A stretch of 64,000 nt of DNA from an uncultured Spirochaetota bacterium (lineage in GTDB: Bacteria > Spirochaetota > UBA4802 > UBA5550): contig CALMRZ010000012.1 in the NCBI GenBank assembly GCA_937872225.1, forward strand, positions 1 through 64,000, written 5' to 3'. The position numbers were made by a program, and so were the translations under genes. Below, piece after piece: positions 21,477 through 30,728 of this stretch; within the stretch, counting starts at the first letter, position 1, and every line of letters starts with the position of its first letter. The notes under the pieces were generated by a model. That model worked only from the letters and a program-made list of their open reading frames with translations, searched no databases and was not told the DNA's origin.

Positions 21477-24095
21477 TCAGTTCTCCTCGGTGACCGGGAG
21501 GCGCGTTCCATTGTTCCTTATTTCGCCGAAGGCGTCATGGATTCCGAGGAAAATGTCCACGATGCCGGGATCGAATTGCGTCCCGGAACAGCGAACGATC
21601 TCCTTCATGGTATAGTTATGCGAGAGCGCGGTACGGTAGGGCCGTTCTGACGTCATGGCGTCATAGGCATCGGCAATGGCCATGACGCGGGCGCCGATGG
21701 GAATGTCATCCTTATAGAGCGCGTATGGGTACCCATTACCATTGTAATGCTCGTGGTGGGCGATTATAATAGATGCCACGTTGTTGAACTCCGTGATCGG
21801 TTTGATGATCAGGGCTCCGTTCACGGGATGGTTCTTGATCTGATTGAACTCTTCGCTGGTCAGCTTCTTGGTGTTGTGGAGTATCTCCTCGGGGACCGCG
21901 ATCTTACCCACGTCATGGAGCAGCGCCGCCAGTTCCAGGTCCTTCAGTTCGTGGTCGGCAAATCCCATCTTCCTCGCTATCGCCAGGGAATACCTGCTCA
22001 CGCGCAGAGAATGGTCCTTGGTATAATTGTCCTTAGCCTCAATGGTCGAGACGAGGGACTTGACCATGGCCAGGAGGAGCGTGCGCTGGCGGTCCATCAG
22101 GTCATCGGTCCTGATTTTCAGGTTGTGGTTCGCCAGGGCAAGGGCCTCTTCCACGGTCCGCGTTCTCAGGAGCGACCGCACCCGCGCCTTGAGCTCATCC
22201 GCGTCGAAGGGCTTGGCCACGTAATCATTGGCGCCTGAATCGATGCCGGCGACCAACATCTCGGAACCGGCACGGGCGGTGACCAGGATTATCGGGATGT
22301 GCTTGTAGGAGGGATCGGCCTTTACTTCGCGGCAGAAGGTATAGCCGTCCATTTCCGGCATCATCACGTCGCAGATCACCAGGTCGGGCATGTTCTCGCG
22401 GAGGAGGGCCAGTCCCTTCCGGCCGGAATTGCACAGGAGCAGATCAAATTCATCCTTTAAAAGAAAATGCATCAGCTTCAGGATGTCCGGATTATCATCG
22501 ATCACCAATATCGTATAGTCATGGACCCCGGTCCGGTGATCATGCGTTTCCAGGTCAAACCGCTCTTCCAGGTCTATGAGCTGCAGGTCGCGGTAATTGC
22601 TCACCACGTCGCTGACCTTGAGCCCTTCAATATCGCTTGCCCGCTTCTTGTACTGCACCGGCTGTTCTGTTTTACGCCGCTCGCGGATATCGTCATTTAT
22701 ATGCTGCTCACCCTTCAGTATCTGGACGATAAAGCGGGACCCCCTGCCGAGGGTGCTCTCCGCCCGTATGGAACCCCCGTGAAGCTCCACGATCTCCCGT
22801 GCCAGGGACAGTCCCAGCCCCGTTCCTTCCTGCGCCCGCGTTGAGGAGCCGTCCACCTGGGCAAAACGGTCAAATATGGTGTCCAGCATATCCTCGGGTA
22901 TCCCCTCGCCGGTGTCCTCCACGACAAGCTCCACGTCGTGATCATGGTCATCGATGCAGAGGGTTATGCGCCCTCCGGCGCCGGTAAACTTGATGGCGTT
23001 ATGGAGAAGATTGATCACCACCTTTTCGAACTGCTCCGTATCGACCATGACCCGTATCCCGTCCTCCATCTGGTACTGGAAATAGAGCTTCAGGCCCCGG
23101 GTCGACGCCATGTGCTGCACCGCCGCGACGATATCCTCGCAGAACTTGATCAGGTCCACCTCCCGGAAGTTGAGGCGCATCCGTCCCGCCTCAAGCTTGG
23201 CGAAATCGAGCAGGTTGTTGATCTGCTTCAGCAGCCTGAGGCCGTTGTTCTGCATGATGGACAGGGTGCCCCGTATGGCGGACGGGACGATATCCTGGCG
23301 TTCATGGATCAGGGTGTTGAGGGGCGCAAGAATCAGCGTGAGGGGCGTCCGCAGTTCGTGGCTCACATTGGTGAAAAATTCGGTTTTAAGCTTGTCATGG
23401 GTGAGAAGCTTCTGGTTGGTCTCTTCGAGTTCGTCGGTGATCCGCTTCAGGTCCTGGTTGGCCTGCTGCATTTCGAACCGTGATTTGAATTCATTGAACC
23501 GGATGTCATTGTAGAATTTCAGGGAACTGATGGAAAGGAAAAAGATGACGATGATAAAGTAATTGTTATTGATGAAAGTGACCCAATCAGTCACGCTGTT
23601 TGTCGCAATAAAGGGAACATTGTACATTTGGAAAATGATCATCCCGCAGGCGAGGCCCATCCTGAACGTGATGGGGAGCCAGATGCAGAGAGCAAAAAAC
23701 ACGATAAGCAGCCCATTATAATAATTGCTGGTGGATCCGCCGGTCCAGTGTATTAACACGGTTATTGTCGAGGCGCATACCAGGCTCGTGGCCGCGGCCA
23801 GCCACATGGAATACTTTATCCCGCGCTTTGTCCTTGATACCAGATAAATTATCACGCACCCCAGAACCATTATCCCGCGAACGATGACAAAATTTATGAA
23901 ATTATTTTTCGCTATAAGATAATCCAGCAAAAGAAACGCCGGGTTTCCGGCAAAAATGACAAAAATAGTTACGAAGCGGACCATTCTGTTGCATCGCTGC
24001 AGTGTTTCAGCTTCGTATTGCTTCAGCAATTCCGGATTGAGGGTTTTTGGTTTATTGAAGTTTACAAATCTTTCCATTATCATTGATCTATTCAT
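21477..24095 (-). CDS. Membrane histidine kinase fused to receiver and HD-GYP phosphodiesterase
   Basis: The protein has 872 residues from ATG 24095 (AGGTG upstream). Order: six or so membrane helices (about 30-190) with no recognised extracellular sensor domain; a short coiled coil; HisKA with H246 in NVSHELRTP; an HATPase with DTGEGIP and GTGLGLSLA; a receiver domain with phospho-acceptor D576 in CDVMMPEMDG and K in AKPFDADE; then HD-GYP with H727-D728 in LLHDVGK and HHEHYNGNGYP. HD-GYP domains hydrolyse c-di-GMP; the GYP loop is complete. So one polypeptide can sense, phosphorylate and degrade second messenger. It is the last gene of the operon that begins with a triple-PilZ protein, 24 nt after the radical SAM gene. 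Its signal is unknown. Confidence 0.93.
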   Translation of the reverse strand: MNRSMIMERFVNFNKPKTLNPELLKQYEAETLQRCNRMVRFVTIFVIFAGNPAFLLLDYLIAKNNFINFVIVRGIMVLGCVIIYLVSRTKRGIKYSMWLAAATSLVCASTITVLIHWTGGSTSNYYNGLLIVFFALCIWLPITFRMGLACGMIIFQMYNVPFIATNSVTDWVTFINNNYFIIVIFFLSISSLKFYNDIRFNEFKSRFEMQQANQDLKRITDELEETNQKLLTHDKLKTEFFTNVSHELRTPLTLILAPLNTLIHERQDIVPSAIRGTLSIMQNNGLRLLKQINNLLDFAKLEAGRMRLNFREVDLIKFCEDIVAAVQHMASTRGLKLYFQYQMEDGIRVMVDTEQFEKVVINLLHNAIKFTGAGGRITLCIDDHDHDVELVVEDTGEGIPEDMLDTIFDRFAQVDGSSTRAQEGTGLGLSLAREIVELHGGSIRAESTLGRGSRFIVQILKGEQHINDDIRERRKTEQPVQYKKRASDIEGLKVSDVVSNYRDLQLIDLEERFDLETHDHRTGVHDYTILVIDDNPDILKLMHFLLKDEFDLLLCNSGRKGLALLRENMPDLVICDVMMPEMDGYTFCREVKADPSYKHIPIILVTARAGSEMLVAGIDSGANDYVAKPFDADELKARVRSLLRTRTVEEALALANHNLKIRTDDLMDRQRTLLLAMVKSLVSTIEAKDNYTKDHSLRVSRYSLAIARKMGFADHELKDLELAALLHDVGKIAVPEEILHNTKKLTSEEFNQIKNHPVNGALIIKPITEFNNVASIIIAHHEHYNGNGYPYALYKDDIPIGARVMAIADAYDAMTSERPYRTALSHNYTMKEIVRCSGTQFDPGIVDIFLGIHDAFGEIRNNGTRLPVTEEN

Positions 24096-24119
24096 AGACA
24101 CCTGTATTCAACCGTTATT

Positions 24120-25430
24120 TCACTCGTTCTCAACAGTACAGCTCAAGGTTTTAAAAATGCTTTTAAAATGCTTCAGCGTTTTAACCCGTACATCCTTATC
24201 GTAAATCCTCTGGTATATTTTGTAAAATCCTTTTTGCAATTCCTCTATACCCATCAGCCGCGGCTGTATATTGACCTGCATCCCGGTATAATCCGACCAG
24301 GGACGGTCAAGAATGCGGCGCTCCCTCATCAGCCGATCACACAGACGTGTCCCCGGAAATGGCGTCAAAATTGATATCTGCGCCATGAAGATATTATTGT
24401 CTATGATAAATTCCGCGAGCTCATCAAGGCTCTCTTTCGTATCCTCGTCAAGACCGATGATGAAAGCCCCGACGATTCCTATGCCGCACGACTGTATTGT
24501 TCTGATGGCATCGGCATACGTGGATGCTTTTTTCAATTTCCATCCGTTTGAATTAATCAGCTGCAAATTCTTCTCGGAAATGCTTTCAAATCCTATCAGC
24601 AGGGTGGTGCATCCCGCTGATTTCATCTGACGAAGGAGATCGACATCATTGGCAATAGCGATGTCCGTCTGGGCAAACCAACGGATGTTCAGCTCCTTAA
24701 GACGCCCCACCAACTCCCGTGAATATTTTCTATTAACAAACAAATTGTCATCGGCAAAATTGATCCTTGCATCAGGCCAGATGTCCTGAATGGCATTAAT
24801 TTCCCGTACGACCTGCTCGACAGTTTTATGGCGGTAGGAATGTCCATATATGCGGGACGCTGCGCAGAATTCGCAATCATGGGGACACCCCCGGCTTGTC
24901 TGCAGCCAGATGACCTTGTAATTATCCTTATTCAAAAGATCATAGCGCGGCACCGGAAGCATGGTCATGTCCGCCGGTTTTCCTGAGCGGTAATAATCGG
25001 ATATTGTACCTTTACGGAAATCATCCAAAAAAACGGGCCATGTCTCTTCAGCTTCGCCTATAAAGACGCAGTCGCAATGCTTTTTAGCCTCCTCCGGCAT
25101 CACCGTGGCATGAATCCCCCCCATGACAACGGTCCTGCCGCGCTTTCTGAATTCATCCGCGATTTCATAAGCCCTGGTGGCCTGCTGGGTCATGGCGGAT
25201 ATACCGACCAGGTCGCAGTCATCATTGTAGTCAACAGCATCATAATTTTCATCAATGATGCGCACATCATGCTCCGCAGGAGTCAGGGATGCTATCACCA
25301 GCAGACCGGAGCTTGATGCTTTGGTTAACGATTCAATATATCCCTGGAAATCCTTCGTATCTGAAAAAATACGCTCCACCACCTCATCTCCGGTGGTCGA
25401 TCCCCGTGGACTGATCAGGTTGATTTTCAT
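24120..25430 (-). CDS. B12-binding-domain radical SAM protein
   Basis: The enzyme has 436 residues. The N-terminal part (about 1-140) is a cobalamin-binding-like fold with DIVGISAMTQQ-type and VVMGGIHATVMPEEA blocks. The radical SAM cluster is C182-x3-C186-x2-C189 in TSRGCPHDCEFC. The C-terminal section carries TPFPGTRL. Relatives (COG1032) include methylases and C-C bond-forming lipid and natural-product enzymes. The B12 His motif DxHxxG is not seen, which is common in this group. The ATG overlaps the ACP stop by 4 nt, so it is tightly coupled; AGGTG lies upstream inside the ACP gene. GC content is a little lower than in flanking genes. A substrate on the carrier protein is likely but not shown. 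Confidence 0.9.
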   Translation of the reverse strand: MKINLISPRGSTTGDEVVERIFSDTKDFQGYIESLTKASSSGLLVIASLTPAEHDVRIIDENYDAVDYNDDCDLVGISAMTQQATRAYEIADEFRKRGRTVVMGGIHATVMPEEAKKHCDCVFIGEAEETWPVFLDDFRKGTISDYYRSGKPADMTMLPVPRYDLLNKDNYKVIWLQTSRGCPHDCEFCAASRIYGHSYRHKTVEQVVREINAIQDIWPDARINFADDNLFVNRKYSRELVGRLKELNIRWFAQTDIAIANDVDLLRQMKSAGCTTLLIGFESISEKNLQLINSNGWKLKKASTYADAIRTIQSCGIGIVGAFIIGLDEDTKESLDELAEFIIDNNIFMAQISILTPFPGTRLCDRLMRERRILDRPWSDYTGMQVNIQPRLMGIEELQKGFYKIYQRIYDKDVRVKTLKHFKSIFKTLSCTVENE

Positions 25431-25699
25431 GCTTCATGGCACCTGTTTATGATTTTTGACTGTACATAATCAATGAATTCGCCCACTGTTTTGATCTGAA
25501 GCGTTTCTTCTTCGTCCACCACAATGCCATAATGCCTTTCTATCTGAGCCACGATTTCAAGGGACATGATGGAATCTATACCGAGCTCCTCCCTTATCAG
25601 CACGGAATCGTCAATGTTCTTTTCGTTGATCCGCGCAATTGTTGCAATCGTTTTAATGATGCTTTCCCTTAACGATGTGTCATTTTTTATTTGCTTCAT
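25427..25699 (-). CDS. Acyl carrier protein, pathway-dedicated
   Basis: The protein has 90 residues, close to normal ACP size. The phosphopantetheine attachment site is S43 in LGIDSIMSLE, with Ile replacing the Leu most often seen after the Ser. Helix 1 is IIKTIATIARI and helix 3 carries VDEEETLQIKTVGEFIDYV. The ATG at 25699 has AGGTGG. It sits 13 nt after the ligase-like gene and overlaps the radical SAM gene. Its place among biosynthetic genes, rather than beside fabF or fabD, argues for a dedicated carrier and not the fatty acid synthase ACP. Confidence 0.93.
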   Translation of the reverse strand: MKQIKNDTSLRESIIKTIATIARINEKNIDDSVLIREELGIDSIMSLEIVAQIERHYGIVVDEEETLQIKTVGEFIDYVQSKIINRCHEA

Positions 25700-25712
25700 A
25701 TATCCACCTGCC

Positions 25713-27110
25713 TTATGAGAACCGTACTGTTTTGGGTATCTTATACGCAGCGATCATACCCTCCAGATGCTGCTTGATCCCGGGGATATCATCAATGCCT
25801 CCGGTGCATGTTTCTCTCTCTATGACGGCTGACACGGTATTATCCTCCACCGATACCGCCGCGTCATGGACGCCGGGAACGGAAACCAGGGCCCTGCGCA
25901 CCTCCTCAAGGTCCACCATGTTTCCCTTCACCTTCCTGGTCTTTTTCTTTTCACCGGCGAAAACCAGGTGGCCTTCCTCCAGCCTGCCGGTATCCCCTGT
26001 TTTAAACCACCCGTCCGCGAAGGCCTCCGCAGTTTCATCGGGTCTCCGGTGATATGCCTTAGTCATGTGATCCGTCTTTATCCATATTTCGCCCGTCCCG
26101 TCGCTGTCCGGGGAATCTATCCTGCATTCGACGCCCCGGCTCACCGTTCCGATGGAACCGGGCCTGATGCTGCCCCGTATATTTCTGCTCACCGGGGTGA
26201 ACTCGGTCAGGCCATATCCGTGTATCAGGTCAACATTGAAAAGCCTTCCAAGGGCATCGTACTGTTCGACCGGCAAAACGCTCCCCCCTGACAGAAACGC
26301 CTTCAGCGAGGACACATCTCCCGCCCCGTCGCGGAATTTCACCAGCAGATCGAAGAGCTCCGGAACGGCAAGGACATTGTCCACGCGGTGCCGCCCGATA
26401 TACTCCAGGAGCCGCAACGGATTTTTTCTGTGCGCAATTATCATCGTTACCCCATGGATCAGCGGATGAAAGAGACAGCCGATAAGGGTGAAAATATTCA
26501 CCATGGGGAGCACAATCAGGATGTTTTCCCCGCGGTTGAGCCGGATCCCCTCCTGCAGCACCATTGCGCCGGTTATGTACTGGCGGTGAGGCACCAGCGC
26601 ACCCAGAGGATAGCCGTACCCTCGATAGGTATAATTGATTGAAGCGATATCATTATCCAAATCCCCCGCTACACCCTTCTTCTTTGTCCCACCGGGCCGG
26701 CGGCACAGCCACTTCCCGCCTTGCCGTTCGATCACTATCCGTCCCTGCGCATAGGGCTGGACAACTGTACTGTGGCCCGCTTCGGTTATTATCGCGCAGG
26801 GTTCGGCATTTGAAAAAATTTCATCCAGTTCAATCGTGCGGAACGCCAGATTGACAGGCACCGGCTTTGCTCCCATATCAATGAGCGCCAGGAATACCGC
26901 GGCATAATCCGATGAATTTTCCAGGAAAACAGCCACGATATCATGCTCCCCTATTCCCTCCTTCACCAGCATCGCTTTTACGTCATTGATCCTCTGCAAA
27001 AAATCAGGCGCGGACAGGGATGCCGCGCTTCCGTCAGGACCCAGCTCGATGCAGACCGGGTGATCGCCCCACCCTTTCAATGACTCAAATACAGGTTCGC
27101 AGCATTTCAT
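25713..27110 (-). CDS. Acyl-CoA-synthetase-like (AMP-binding) protein, catalytically odd
   Basis: The protein has 465 residues, shorter than the 500-550 usual for this superfamily. Clear family motifs are PVNLAFRTIELDEIF, the adenylate loop GYGLTEFTP, and GWFKTGDTG followed by a hinge region with KVKGNMVDLEEV. Two key parts are abnormal. The P-loop (usually TSGTTGxPKG) reads TYRGYGYPLG, with its Lys replaced by Leu. The protein also stops at YKIPKTVRFS, before the A10 motif that supplies the catalytic Lys. It lies 12 nt after the PilZ-hydrolase-methyltransferase gene and 13 nt before the ACP. It may load the ACP by an altered mechanism, bind an acyl-adenylate made elsewhere, or be non-catalytic. 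Confidence 0.88.
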   Translation of the reverse strand: MKCCEPVFESLKGWGDHPVCIELGPDGSAASLSAPDFLQRINDVKAMLVKEGIGEHDIVAVFLENSSDYAAVFLALIDMGAKPVPVNLAFRTIELDEIFSNAEPCAIITEAGHSTVVQPYAQGRIVIERQGGKWLCRRPGGTKKKGVAGDLDNDIASINYTYRGYGYPLGALVPHRQYITGAMVLQEGIRLNRGENILIVLPMVNIFTLIGCLFHPLIHGVTMIIAHRKNPLRLLEYIGRHRVDNVLAVPELFDLLVKFRDGAGDVSSLKAFLSGGSVLPVEQYDALGRLFNVDLIHGYGLTEFTPVSRNIRGSIRPGSIGTVSRGVECRIDSPDSDGTGEIWIKTDHMTKAYHRRPDETAEAFADGWFKTGDTGRLEEGHLVFAGEKKKTRKVKGNMVDLEEVRRALVSVPGVHDAAVSVEDNTVSAVIERETCTGGIDDIPGIKQHLEGMIAAYKIPKTVRFS

Positions 27111-27122
27111 CTCATTATCCGA

Positions 27123-30100
27123 TCAGGTAACACCTGGTTTTGCTCCCGTGACAATTACCACCTGTGGCGGATCCCCCAGCGATTCCGTCACCGCGCAATT
27201 CACGAATCCGGCCCTGCCGAGCATTTCGCACAGTTCCCCGTCTGAGTAAAACCTGAAATGCCCGTCCTCCTCCAGCTCCAGCAGGGATGCGGCCTCGTTG
27301 AGCATGGCCCGCGCTCCGGTGAGGTTCTTTTCCCTTTCTTCCTCAGTCATGGTAACTGAAAATTCCTTCCAGACCTTGTTTATATAATTAGTGAATATGA
27401 CCGATATATCACCGTCTGGCCGCATTGAAGACACCAGCAACCGTCCGTCCGGTTTAAGTATTCTGTAGAATTCATTCAAAATTTCATCGGGGTTAAAGAG
27501 ATAGCTTATGAGCAGACTTGCCGCTATTTTATCAAAGGTGGAGTCCCTGAAGGACAGGTTAAGAGCAAGGCCTTTTGAACCGAACCTCAAATCCGAAAAG
27601 ACCAGATCATCAGTCCTTACCGTATTGTGGTTTATTGTTTGCGATTTTCCATGATTGCCGGAATGAGCACGGCCGATATCCAGGGGAAAAAGACGTCCTA
27701 ACAGAAATCGCGCGGCGCGGTTGAAATCGATAATTGCCCTGCAATCTTCATCGCTGAAACGATCCCTGAGAAACAGCATTTCATAATCACCCATGGCGGC
27801 ACCGCGCATGAGAGACCGCAGAAGCCCTGAATCACCGGCGACAAGGCGGTCGATGGTGGTGTTTTTCAGGCCCTCCACGCGGTTCCTCAGGTAATCATAG
27901 TCAAGGGTCTTGTCCTCGATGAACCGTTTTACCGGGACAAGCCGGTTAGGCTCCAGGTCCATCTGGATAAAGTCAACCGCCTGGGGAACCACCGCGCCGT
28001 AGAGGTCTTTGATCCGTAAATATTTTTCGCGCGTTCTCGCAAGGGCTTCAGAGACAAGGTCAACCTGGACCAGCCGCGCCCGGGACAGATCGACACCCTG
28101 TTCTGCCCGGTCCAGAAGCATACGCTCCATGAAGATGCCGGTTCCGCATCCCATGTCGGCCATGATTTCCCCGTTTTTCAGGTCCAGGAGGGACCCCTGT
28201 ACTGATAAAAATTCACGGAACTCGTCAAAATTCCTGTAAAAATCGTAGCCGACACTGTTCCTGTTTTCGCCTATGAGATAATCCTTCCAGTATTCACGGA
28301 TATTGACGTCGTCATTCTGATATAGTCTCTCGCGTTCACAGGTAATCAGGCTGACCAGGCTGCTCCGGTCCGGGTCAACGGGCCTGATGTTCCGGTGATG
28401 AAGATGGCGGTATATCATCCGGGTGATGATCTTGAAGGTCAGAAGCGCGTCCTCGCTGGAACGGAGATTGTGCCCGGTGGGGATTTCAATGACATCCCGG
28501 GGGCCCTTGGCGCGCACGCTCATGAGGTCCAGAATTTCTCGGTCAACGACCCACCGGTCATATTTTCCGTAAATCCATGATACCGGGATGGAAATGCGCG
28601 ACATGTCGTGCCGGGCGTCGGCCAGGTAGGCGTACCTGTTCTCGATCAGGTCCTTCGCGATGGTGTCAAGGTCAAGGATATGCCCCAGCACCCCGGACAG
28701 GCCGCTCTGTATTCCGTTGCGGGCGTTGTCTATGATGTCTATCCCGCCGGTGATAATATTGAAGCTGCTCCGGGCGCAGGTTATGCCCATGACATTGACC
28801 AGGTACGTGACCCGGGAATCCTTCACGGCCAGCTTGCGCGCGTCCAGGGCCGACATGCTGAAGGCGACCACGATCACCGCCGTCGGCCTGAATAGTTTGT
28901 TATGGTGCGCGTAATCCATGGTTGCCTCGAGATCATCCAGCCCCTGGCTTATGCGATAATTAAGCATTTCATAGCCCCGCTTCGGGCACATGCCGTCCTG
29001 GCAGCTTTCCCCCGGCCTGTTGATGCCGTCATATCTGATGACAACAAGGTCCTTGTCGAATTTTCTGAAATTTTCCAGGAGTGTCGCCACGAAGGGCGAC
29101 AGGGTCTCCTTCTTTTTTCCAAAGGCGGGAGGCAGGATGACAACGGGGGCCTTTGTTCCGGATCCGGTATGGTTGAGCAGGGCAACGATTTCTTTCCCCT
29201 CCCTGTTCCGGTACCGCACGACCTCGGACACGATCCCCCGTCCGGCGCCGGCCGTTGACCGTTGTTTAGCCGCCTTGGCCCTGTCCCATCTGGTCCGTCC
29301 GAAACGCATCAAGGAGACATCCGCCCGCCTGATGCCCGCTTCAATGCCCAGCTGCAGCATGGCAGTGCCGTCATCCGTTTTGACTTCCTTGATATGGCGT
29401 ATCTCGCCAAAGGTATCAAGGCCCATGTCCCTGTTGAAATAGTAGGACACCGGCTGCCCCAGTTTAACCAGCTCCCGCTGCAGCGGTGGAAGTTTCACGT
29501 TGCACAGGAAGCCCCGGCGGCTTACGTTTTCCACCTTCCCGTTGAACTTTACCGACGGCATGTCATCCAGTTCCATGAACACGTCAATACCGTCGCCGAT
29601 ATATTTCCGCGCATACGACCTCTTGTCCGACTGGTGCAGGACCGCCGGGAACGAGAATATGAGCCGCGTGCCCCCCGCTTCCATGAGGTGGCTGGCGAAA
29701 TAATAGCTCGATCCGTGCAGGTAGAATGAAAAATACACCTCGTGCCGCTTTTTCAGGTCCAGTTCGCCGATGTCTTTTTGGAATGACGTTGCAAAGGAGG
29801 AACAGCGGGCATCGACATGTTTCATCATGAGAACAAACATCGCGATGCTTTTTTCAAAAAGAACGTTGATGTGCCGTTTTTCCTTTTTTAGCAGCCTGAA
29901 AAGTCCGGCGATTTTTTCCGGGTCCCGTATCAGGTTTTCGTTGCCGGTCACATGTTCATTCCTTCTTTCCTGGAGGGTCCTTAAAGCGGTGCTTGTCGCG
30001 GATTTCAGGATGAAATTGCGTATCCTGATGGAATCAATATCTGAAATGTCGCTGAAACAGACTCCCGCCCGGTGCATGCCCCAGCCGTCATCCTGAATGA

Positions 30101-30665
30101 CATAGGTTACAAAGCCGGCGGCGGTGACCCTCCTGCGGTCTCCCGGCAGGGTTATGGACAGGGTTATTCCATCATGGGCATTGAGGGAACCTTTATAGCT
30201 GACCAGGCAGCCCTCGGTTGATATATTGTCAATGGAAGAAATGAAAATCCCTTGATTGTCGCAGGAAACACCGGTGAGGTTGCATGAAATGCGCGGAATG
30301 ACCCTCAGGTCCGAATGTTTGGCATCATTTTTCGTCAGGCTGCGGCGACTGTTACGGATGAAATTATCGATCAGGATCATCTGGGTCTCTGTCTGATCTG
30401 AAAATTCGATCCCCAGCACATGCCCTTCTTCCGATTCCGTTCTGTTGCTCCTGACGATTTTACAGGGCAGATGGATGACTTCCGGAGAAAGGGGCAGGTT
30501 GAAGGCGATTCTTTCAATTGTAAGATGCGATACCGGGACATTGACGACGACCCTGATGCCGCTGTTGCTGATGTCGATGGATTTTCCTACCAGGGTTTGC
30601 CCTTCAGCAATAAGCTCCACCTGTTTTTCATAGGAGACCCGGACATGTTTTCTATTGTTCGTCAT
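27123..30665 (-). CDS. Triple-PilZ, LuxD-like hydrolase and SAM methyltransferase fusion
   Basis: The protein has 1180 residues from ATG 30665 (AGGTG upstream). PilZ 1: R5-x3-R9 and D31-x-S33-x2-G36. PilZ 2: R121-x3-R125 and N147-x-S149-x2-G152. PilZ 3 follows a YcgR-like segment: R349-x3-R353 and then NVSRRG. An alpha/beta hydrolase covers about 480-760 with S603 in AFSMSA, D703 in GKYDRWVVD and H732 in PTGHNL. Those spacings (100 and 29) nearly match the Ser-Asp-His triad of bacterial LuxD acyl-transferases. A class I methyltransferase follows, with motif I at 837-843 (DMGCGTG) and a later LKPDGRLLVSS strand; a long insertion lies between. No frame break is seen. It heads the operon. I infer c-di-GMP-gated acyl transfer or release plus methylation. 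Confidence 0.9.
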   Translation of the reverse strand: MTNNRKHVRVSYEKQVELIAEGQTLVGKSIDISNSGIRVVVNVPVSHLTIERIAFNLPLSPEVIHLPCKIVRSNRTESEEGHVLGIEFSDQTETQMILIDNFIRNSRRSLTKNDAKHSDLRVIPRISCNLTGVSCDNQGIFISSIDNISTEGCLVSYKGSLNAHDGITLSITLPGDRRRVTAAGFVTYVIQDDGWGMHRAGVCFSDISDIDSIRIRNFILKSATSTALRTLQERRNEHVTGNENLIRDPEKIAGLFRLLKKEKRHINVLFEKSIAMFVLMMKHVDARCSSFATSFQKDIGELDLKKRHEVYFSFYLHGSSYYFASHLMEAGGTRLIFSFPAVLHQSDKRSYARKYIGDGIDVFMELDDMPSVKFNGKVENVSRRGFLCNVKLPPLQRELVKLGQPVSYYFNRDMGLDTFGEIRHIKEVKTDDGTAMLQLGIEAGIRRADVSLMRFGRTRWDRAKAAKQRSTAGAGRGIVSEVVRYRNREGKEIVALLNHTGSGTKAPVVILPPAFGKKKETLSPFVATLLENFRKFDKDLVVIRYDGINRPGESCQDGMCPKRGYEMLNYRISQGLDDLEATMDYAHHNKLFRPTAVIVVAFSMSALDARKLAVKDSRVTYLVNVMGITCARSSFNIITGGIDIIDNARNGIQSGLSGVLGHILDLDTIAKDLIENRYAYLADARHDMSRISIPVSWIYGKYDRWVVDREILDLMSVRAKGPRDVIEIPTGHNLRSSEDALLTFKIITRMIYRHLHHRNIRPVDPDRSSLVSLITCERERLYQNDDVNIREYWKDYLIGENRNSVGYDFYRNFDEFREFLSVQGSLLDLKNGEIMADMGCGTGIFMERMLLDRAEQGVDLSRARLVQVDLVSEALARTREKYLRIKDLYGAVVPQAVDFIQMDLEPNRLVPVKRFIEDKTLDYDYLRNRVEGLKNTTIDRLVAGDSGLLRSLMRGAAMGDYEMLFLRDRFSDEDCRAIIDFNRAARFLLGRLFPLDIGRAHSGNHGKSQTINHNTVRTDDLVFSDLRFGSKGLALNLSFRDSTFDKIAASLLISYLFNPDEILNEFYRILKPDGRLLVSSMRPDGDISVIFTNYINKVWKEFSVTMTEEEREKNLTGARAMLNEAASLLELEEDGHFRFYSDGELCEMLGRAGFVNCAVTESLGDPPQVVIVTGAKPGVT

Positions 30666-30728
30666 AAGACACCTGGGTGAAACTTTTCTCAGCATATGTA
30701 GAGAAAATCCGTTCTTCCGAATTCACAT

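Follow-up and report, generated by a model that had tools for sequence, protein, structure and literature searches.

A PilZ protein fused to LuxD-like hydrolase and methyltransferase domains in a conserved acyl-carrier gene cassette of Spirochaetota

To our knowledge, the outputs of PilZ domains described so far are mainly motility, polysaccharide synthesis, transcription, and protein partners. Two arrangements are of particular relevance here. In BcsA cellulose synthase a PilZ domain is fused to the enzyme, and cyclic di-GMP (c-di-GMP) gates glycosyltransferase catalysis directly. In the PP4397/YcgR receptors (3kyf, 2gjg; PF07238, PilZN), a PilZN barrel is followed by a PilZ domain with RxxxR and (D/N)xSxxG signatures; YcgR docks on the flagellar motor through this PilZN-PilZ module. 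LuxD (PDB 1tht, PF02273) is the myristoyl-ACP thioesterase/acyltransferase of Vibrio harveyi. A set of AMP ligase, acyl carrier protein (ACP), and one or more serine hydrolases, comparable to the one described below, occurs in exosortase A-associated clusters, where we know of no PilZ or methyltransferase fusion and no HD-GYP partner.

The window, a stretch of 64,000 nucleotides from an uncultured Spirochaetota bacterium (contig CALMRZ010000012.1), contains a gene that joins several of these elements in a single chain (Table 1). Its reading frame is open on the minus strand from 27123 to 30695; the start at 30665 gives 1180 residues with no stop inside, while the plus strand across the gene carries many stops. 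Pfam matches are to PilZ, several methyltransferase models, and Acyl_transf_2/LuxD. An earlier note had described three PilZ domains, a LuxD-like hydrolase, and a SAM methyltransferase in one chain. This holds, with the same domain order in all 14 members now known (the window protein and 13 relatives), and the residues assigned to the signatures and the triad (R5/R9, R121/R125, R349/R353, and S603/D703/H732) were numbered correctly. Chance is excluded by the constancy of that order down to ~35% overall identity and by the invariance of the triad, the third PilZ signature, and DxGCGTG. A full-length AlphaFold2 model built from the 14 sequences has a mean pLDDT of 75.7 and a pTM of 0.48, the latter meaning that the placement of the PilZ half relative to the catalytic half is unreliable.

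Table 1. Positions of the fusion gene, its domains, and the downstream cassette genes in the window.
Feature	Position	Strand	Details
Fusion protein gene	27123..30665	-	1180 aa; PilZ-PilZ-PilZN-like-PilZ-LuxD-like hydrolase-SAM methyltransferase
PilZ domain 1	30357..30656	-	residues 4-103; R5xxxR9 and DxSxxG; PF07238
PilZ domain 2	29991..30311	-	~residues 119-225; R121xxxR125 and NISTEG; second PF07238 stretch
PilZN (YcgR-N)-like beta barrel	29631..29873	-	putative; ~residues 265-345; AlphaFold2 strands
PilZ domain 3	29301..29630	-	~residues 346-455; R349xxxR353 and NVSRRG
LuxD-like alpha/beta hydrolase	28362..29234	-	residues 478-768; sequence and fold matches to LuxD
Triad codons	S603 28857-28859; D703 28557-28559; H732 28470-28472	-	
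SAM methyltransferase	27126..28361	-	residues 769-1180; DMGCGTG at 28137-28157
AMP-binding (ANL) ligase homologue	25713..27110	-	465 aa; PF00501 3.5e-48
Acyl carrier protein	25427..25699	-	90 aa; PF00550 2.6e-13; predicted phosphopantetheine Ser43, codon 25571-25573
B12-binding radical SAM enzyme	24120..25430	-	PF04055, PF02310; 4-base overlap with ACP gene
Histidine kinase-receiver-HD-GYP protein	21477..24101	-	predicted c-di-GMP phosphodiesterase

In the N-terminal half, PF07238 matches in two stretches (E 4.7e-25 for the whole protein), and TIGR02266 matches the second domain at residues 137-219. The third domain alone is under the Pfam cut-off, at 14.8 bits; its family profile matches PP4397 (3kyf, 2gjg) at 1e-4, and PP4397 in the c-di-GMP-containing structure 3kyf is the best PilZ structural match by both profile and fold search. 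All three window domains thus have, besides the PilZ fold or profile, both receptor signatures, as the earlier note had said. Among the relatives, RxxxR of PilZ1 is intact in 11 of 11 members containing it and (D/N)xSxxG in 12 of 12; in PilZ3, R349, R353, S382, and G385 are invariant (14/14). The PilZ2 motif is incomplete in three relatives, two of which (L042 and L043) have lost the D/N position, and one of which (L031) has T in place of S. The beta barrel preceding PilZ3 has weak Pfam matches in relatives, to PilZNR in two and to PilZN in one. The N-terminal half is therefore probably better described as PilZ-PilZ-(PilZN-like/PilZ), a refinement of the three-PilZ description based on the model, in which two more PilZ domains stand ahead of a YcgR-like pair that is joined to enzymes. 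From their signatures, the modules are predicted to bind c-di-GMP.

The hydrolase is LuxD-like in fold and active site; by curated cut-off and by context it is not LuxD. Acyl_transf_2 (PF02273) matches 13 of the 14 members with the best E-value, and the window protein at 21.7 bits (cut-off 20.3). V. harveyi LuxD is the sole significant PDB sequence match of the hydrolase profile (5e-4), with S603 aligned to S114 and D703 to D211, which we take to be residues of the LuxD triad (Ser114-Asp211-His241); the histidine lies outside the aligned stretch, and H732 is matched to it by conserved spacing only. The triad and the spacings of 100 and 29 residues proposed in the earlier note are present in the window, and across the family the three residues are invariant (14/14), with 100-103 residues from Ser to Asp and 29 from Asp to His throughout. 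The AxSxS-type nucleophile elbow, the order and spacing of the triad, and a DxWV motif are all shared with LuxD. Structure prediction followed by a fold search, the check that had been proposed for this region, likewise favored LuxD: it ranked first among ~350,000 PDB chains for the full-length model (1.6e-10), and took the first two places for a model of the hydrolase itself (pLDDT 86.6; 1.8e-16, TM 0.75). In the latter search PET46, feruloyl esterases, and lipases followed with somewhat lower scores, and with identity to LuxD at ~15% and esterases scoring so close, the substrate class is not fixed by the fold search. The NCBIfam LuxD equivalog model gave 20.4 bits against a cut-off of 420. 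A bioluminescence pathway was rejected: a whole-genome search found no LuxC (PF05893) in the host, and there is no luxCDABE context.

The methyltransferase following the hydrolase, with its DMGCGTG, is also as first described. Motif I of class I SAM methyltransferases (DxGCGTG) and the acidic motif II residue are invariant in all 14 members, as is D869. Between motifs II and IV lies a helical insertion of ~110-150 residues with the conserved pattern LEPNRLxPVKRF...LRNRVEGL...MRG.

The earlier note did not mention the gene neighborhood, which supplies evidence of a different kind. Downstream on the same strand are genes for an ANL ligase homologue, an ACP, a B12 radical-SAM enzyme, and a histidine kinase-receiver-HD-GYP protein. 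Spacing is tight, at 12, 13, and 18 bases with a single overlap of 4 bases; the ACP gene starts 13 bases past the ligase gene. Promoter and terminator scans found no terminator-like site on the minus strand from 24101 to 30665. Every locus on a long enough contig has the order enzyme-ligase-ACP-(radical SAM)-HD-GYP, between otherwise unrelated flanks. The ACP gene is present wherever the contig extends that far, with a DS(I/L) site conserved in the cassette (DSI in the window); two cassettes, L041 and L043, are without the radical-SAM gene. The HD-GYP partner is found in all eight loci with sufficient flank, with HD dyad, further metal ligands, and GYP motif invariant in each, and the full histidine kinase-receiver-HD-GYP domain set is common to the six relatives tested. 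GGDEF matches in the host genome number 20, two of which share a frame, giving ~19 genes. Quite apart from the domains of the fusion itself, these neighbors and the GGDEF genes link it to c-di-GMP and to acyl groups on a carrier. An ACP encoded two genes downstream strengthens the acyl theme and gives indirect support to acyl-ACP as the putative hydrolase substrate; c-di-GMP control is likewise indirectly supported by the intact signatures, the co-conserved HD-GYP gene, and the host GGDEF genes. A defense role was unsupported, since PADLOC matches were weak, partial, or to unnamed candidate models (mad2, 30.5 bits over 80 residues).

The ligase homologue resembles FadD13-type acyl-CoA ligases (PDB 3r44; 2.9e-42) in having the ANL fold over its length and the A5 (YGLTE) and A7 (TGD) motifs, but unlike them it lacks the canonical P-loop (A3) and the A10 lysine segment. 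The P-loop is rewritten as INYTYRGYGYPLGA (26598-26639, minus strand), with TYRGYG in the window and TYRGxG replacing the TSGTTG of ordinary ligases in the alignment of all 11 cassette copies; each copy stops ~3-24 residues past YKIP, with no GK motif. In ordinary ligases of the same phylum, used as controls, the P-loop reads YTSGTTGNPKG and the chain runs on to LPKNILGKILKK. Adenylation by ANL enzymes is driven by the A10 lysine. Since both the P-loop and the lysine segment are affected in 11 of 11 copies, the homologue probably does not adenylate, which leaves ACP loading unexplained. ATP-independent loading or hand-over of acyl groups is one possible role for it, and that of a partner protein another.

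The fusion gene is rare. Within the genus it occurs in three of five other genomes, at 60-64% identity and in the same chromosomal place; more broadly, it was found in 5 of 393 sampled Spirochaetota genomes, and among 395 sampled Desulfobacterota genomes the only positive was the one on which the sample was centered. A scan of genome contigs with the single protein found zero relatives; one with a hydrolase alignment of four members returned 11 loci, of which two were genus members known beforehand and the others belonged to Spirochaetales MAGs, an unplaced bin, and two Desulfobacteraceae. One further relative comes from another Spirochaetota family. The 13 relatives are from other Spirochaetota and the two Desulfobacteraceae; the hydrolase-methyltransferase core, the third PilZ signature, and the triad are common to them and the window protein. 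In a hydrolase tree the Desulfobacteraceae pair groups with the window's genus, with support of 100/98; this points to gene transfer but is short of proof. Neither sampled Spirochaetota nor sampled Desulfobacterota have a stand-alone copy of the hydrolase subfamily, and sampled Spirochaetota have none of the methyltransferase subfamily; methyltransferase-only matches in other families were generic and set aside. Some relatives are incomplete: the L042, L044, and L045 members run off their contigs, the L040 member starts after PilZ1 and is without that domain (L040:2638), and in L039 the frame seems to be broken close to the end of PilZ1, between it and PilZ2 (L039:8565-9068). The L039 break and the L040 loss could be either natural decay or assembly error.

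The reading we prefer, by a modest degree of confidence, is that the fusion is the central, c-di-GMP-gated acyl-ACP enzyme of a small, patchily distributed cassette that also encodes a signal-removing sensor. An acyl group carried by the cassette ACP would pass to the LuxD-like domain as a Ser603 acyl-enzyme, to be hydrolyzed or passed to an acceptor, and the fused methyltransferase, with the B12 radical-SAM enzyme in most copies, would act on that same acyl chain or on the product. Binding of c-di-GMP to the PilZ modules would shift the catalytic half as in BcsA, so that activity tracks the c-di-GMP level, and the histidine kinase-receiver-HD-GYP partner would sense a cue, remove c-di-GMP, and reset the switch. 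The domain identities, the intact motifs, the LuxD-like fold, and the conserved gene set come directly from sequence or structure prediction; from them we infer c-di-GMP binding, the gating and its direction, the ACP-bound substrate, the methyl acceptor, and the product. Weakening this explanation are the ~15% identity to LuxD, the PilZ2 motif losses, the unexplained loading of the ACP, and the absence of the radical-SAM gene from two cassettes. An extended version, a self-contained c-di-GMP-gated acyl-carrier unit in which direct allostery acts on the acyl-transferring and methylating enzyme while the non-adenylating ANL homologue feeds it as an ATP-independent acyl-ACP transferase or loader, seems to us improbable.

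The main rival to gating is localization: c-di-GMP could direct the enzyme, through its PilZ modules, to the membrane, the flagellar motor, or another protein, with the catalytic half acting on acyl-ACP or a free ester irrespective of the signal. The YcgR-like PilZN-PilZ pair in the fusion is of the kind by which YcgR docks on the flagellar motor; three PilZ domains on one chain with two catalytic domains, and an HD-GYP partner conserved along with them, resemble a switch more than an anchor, and we consider localization unlikely, if the strongest of the alternatives. Less probable again is that the hydrolase is an ordinary esterase cutting a methyl or aryl ester, for example one that the fused methyltransferase makes, after the pattern of BioC and BioH. 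A methyltransferase does adjoin the serine hydrolase, and feruloyl esterases and lipases come close behind LuxD in the fold search, but LuxD leads in both sequence and fold, the nucleophile elbow AFSMSA is not GxSxG, and identity with BioC or BioH was rejected at scores far under the curated cut-offs (28.2 against 185 bits and 15.2 against 207 bits). Finally, part of the chain could be a pseudoenzyme and the cassette a signaling scaffold with no pathway. Loss of the P-loop and A10 lysine from every ligase copy does indicate that non-catalytic members are tolerated, but with hydrolase triad and SAM motif invariant in all 14 members and the HD-GYP residues in 8 of 8, this is very improbable.

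Taken with the preferred reading of a gated acyl-ACP enzyme, the locus suggests that c-di-GMP directly gates a small, hitherto uncharacterized lipid-like pathway. The earlier note held that such direct allosteric control would be a new use of PilZ domains. This somewhat overstates the case, BcsA being a precedent for control of an enzyme by a PilZ domain in cis; its catalytic domains are unrelated to those of the fusion, which has three PilZ domains and no membrane domain that could be seen, and the acyl- and methyl-transferring output would be new. A literature search covering few subscription papers turned up no PilZ protein joined to a LuxD-like hydrolase or to a methyltransferase, no paper linking PilZ to ACP and AMP-binding genes, and no account of the cassette. 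How ANL enzymes evolve is a separate question, raised by the loss of adenylation motifs from every copy of the ligase homologue. With PilZ domains fused to the enzyme, gating could be tested on one protein, and the pairing with an HD-GYP sensor hints at a local signaling loop already in place. If the proposal is correct, the fusion of PilZ to an enzyme for carrier-bound acyl chains would give c-di-GMP a direct link to lipid or natural-product chemistry.
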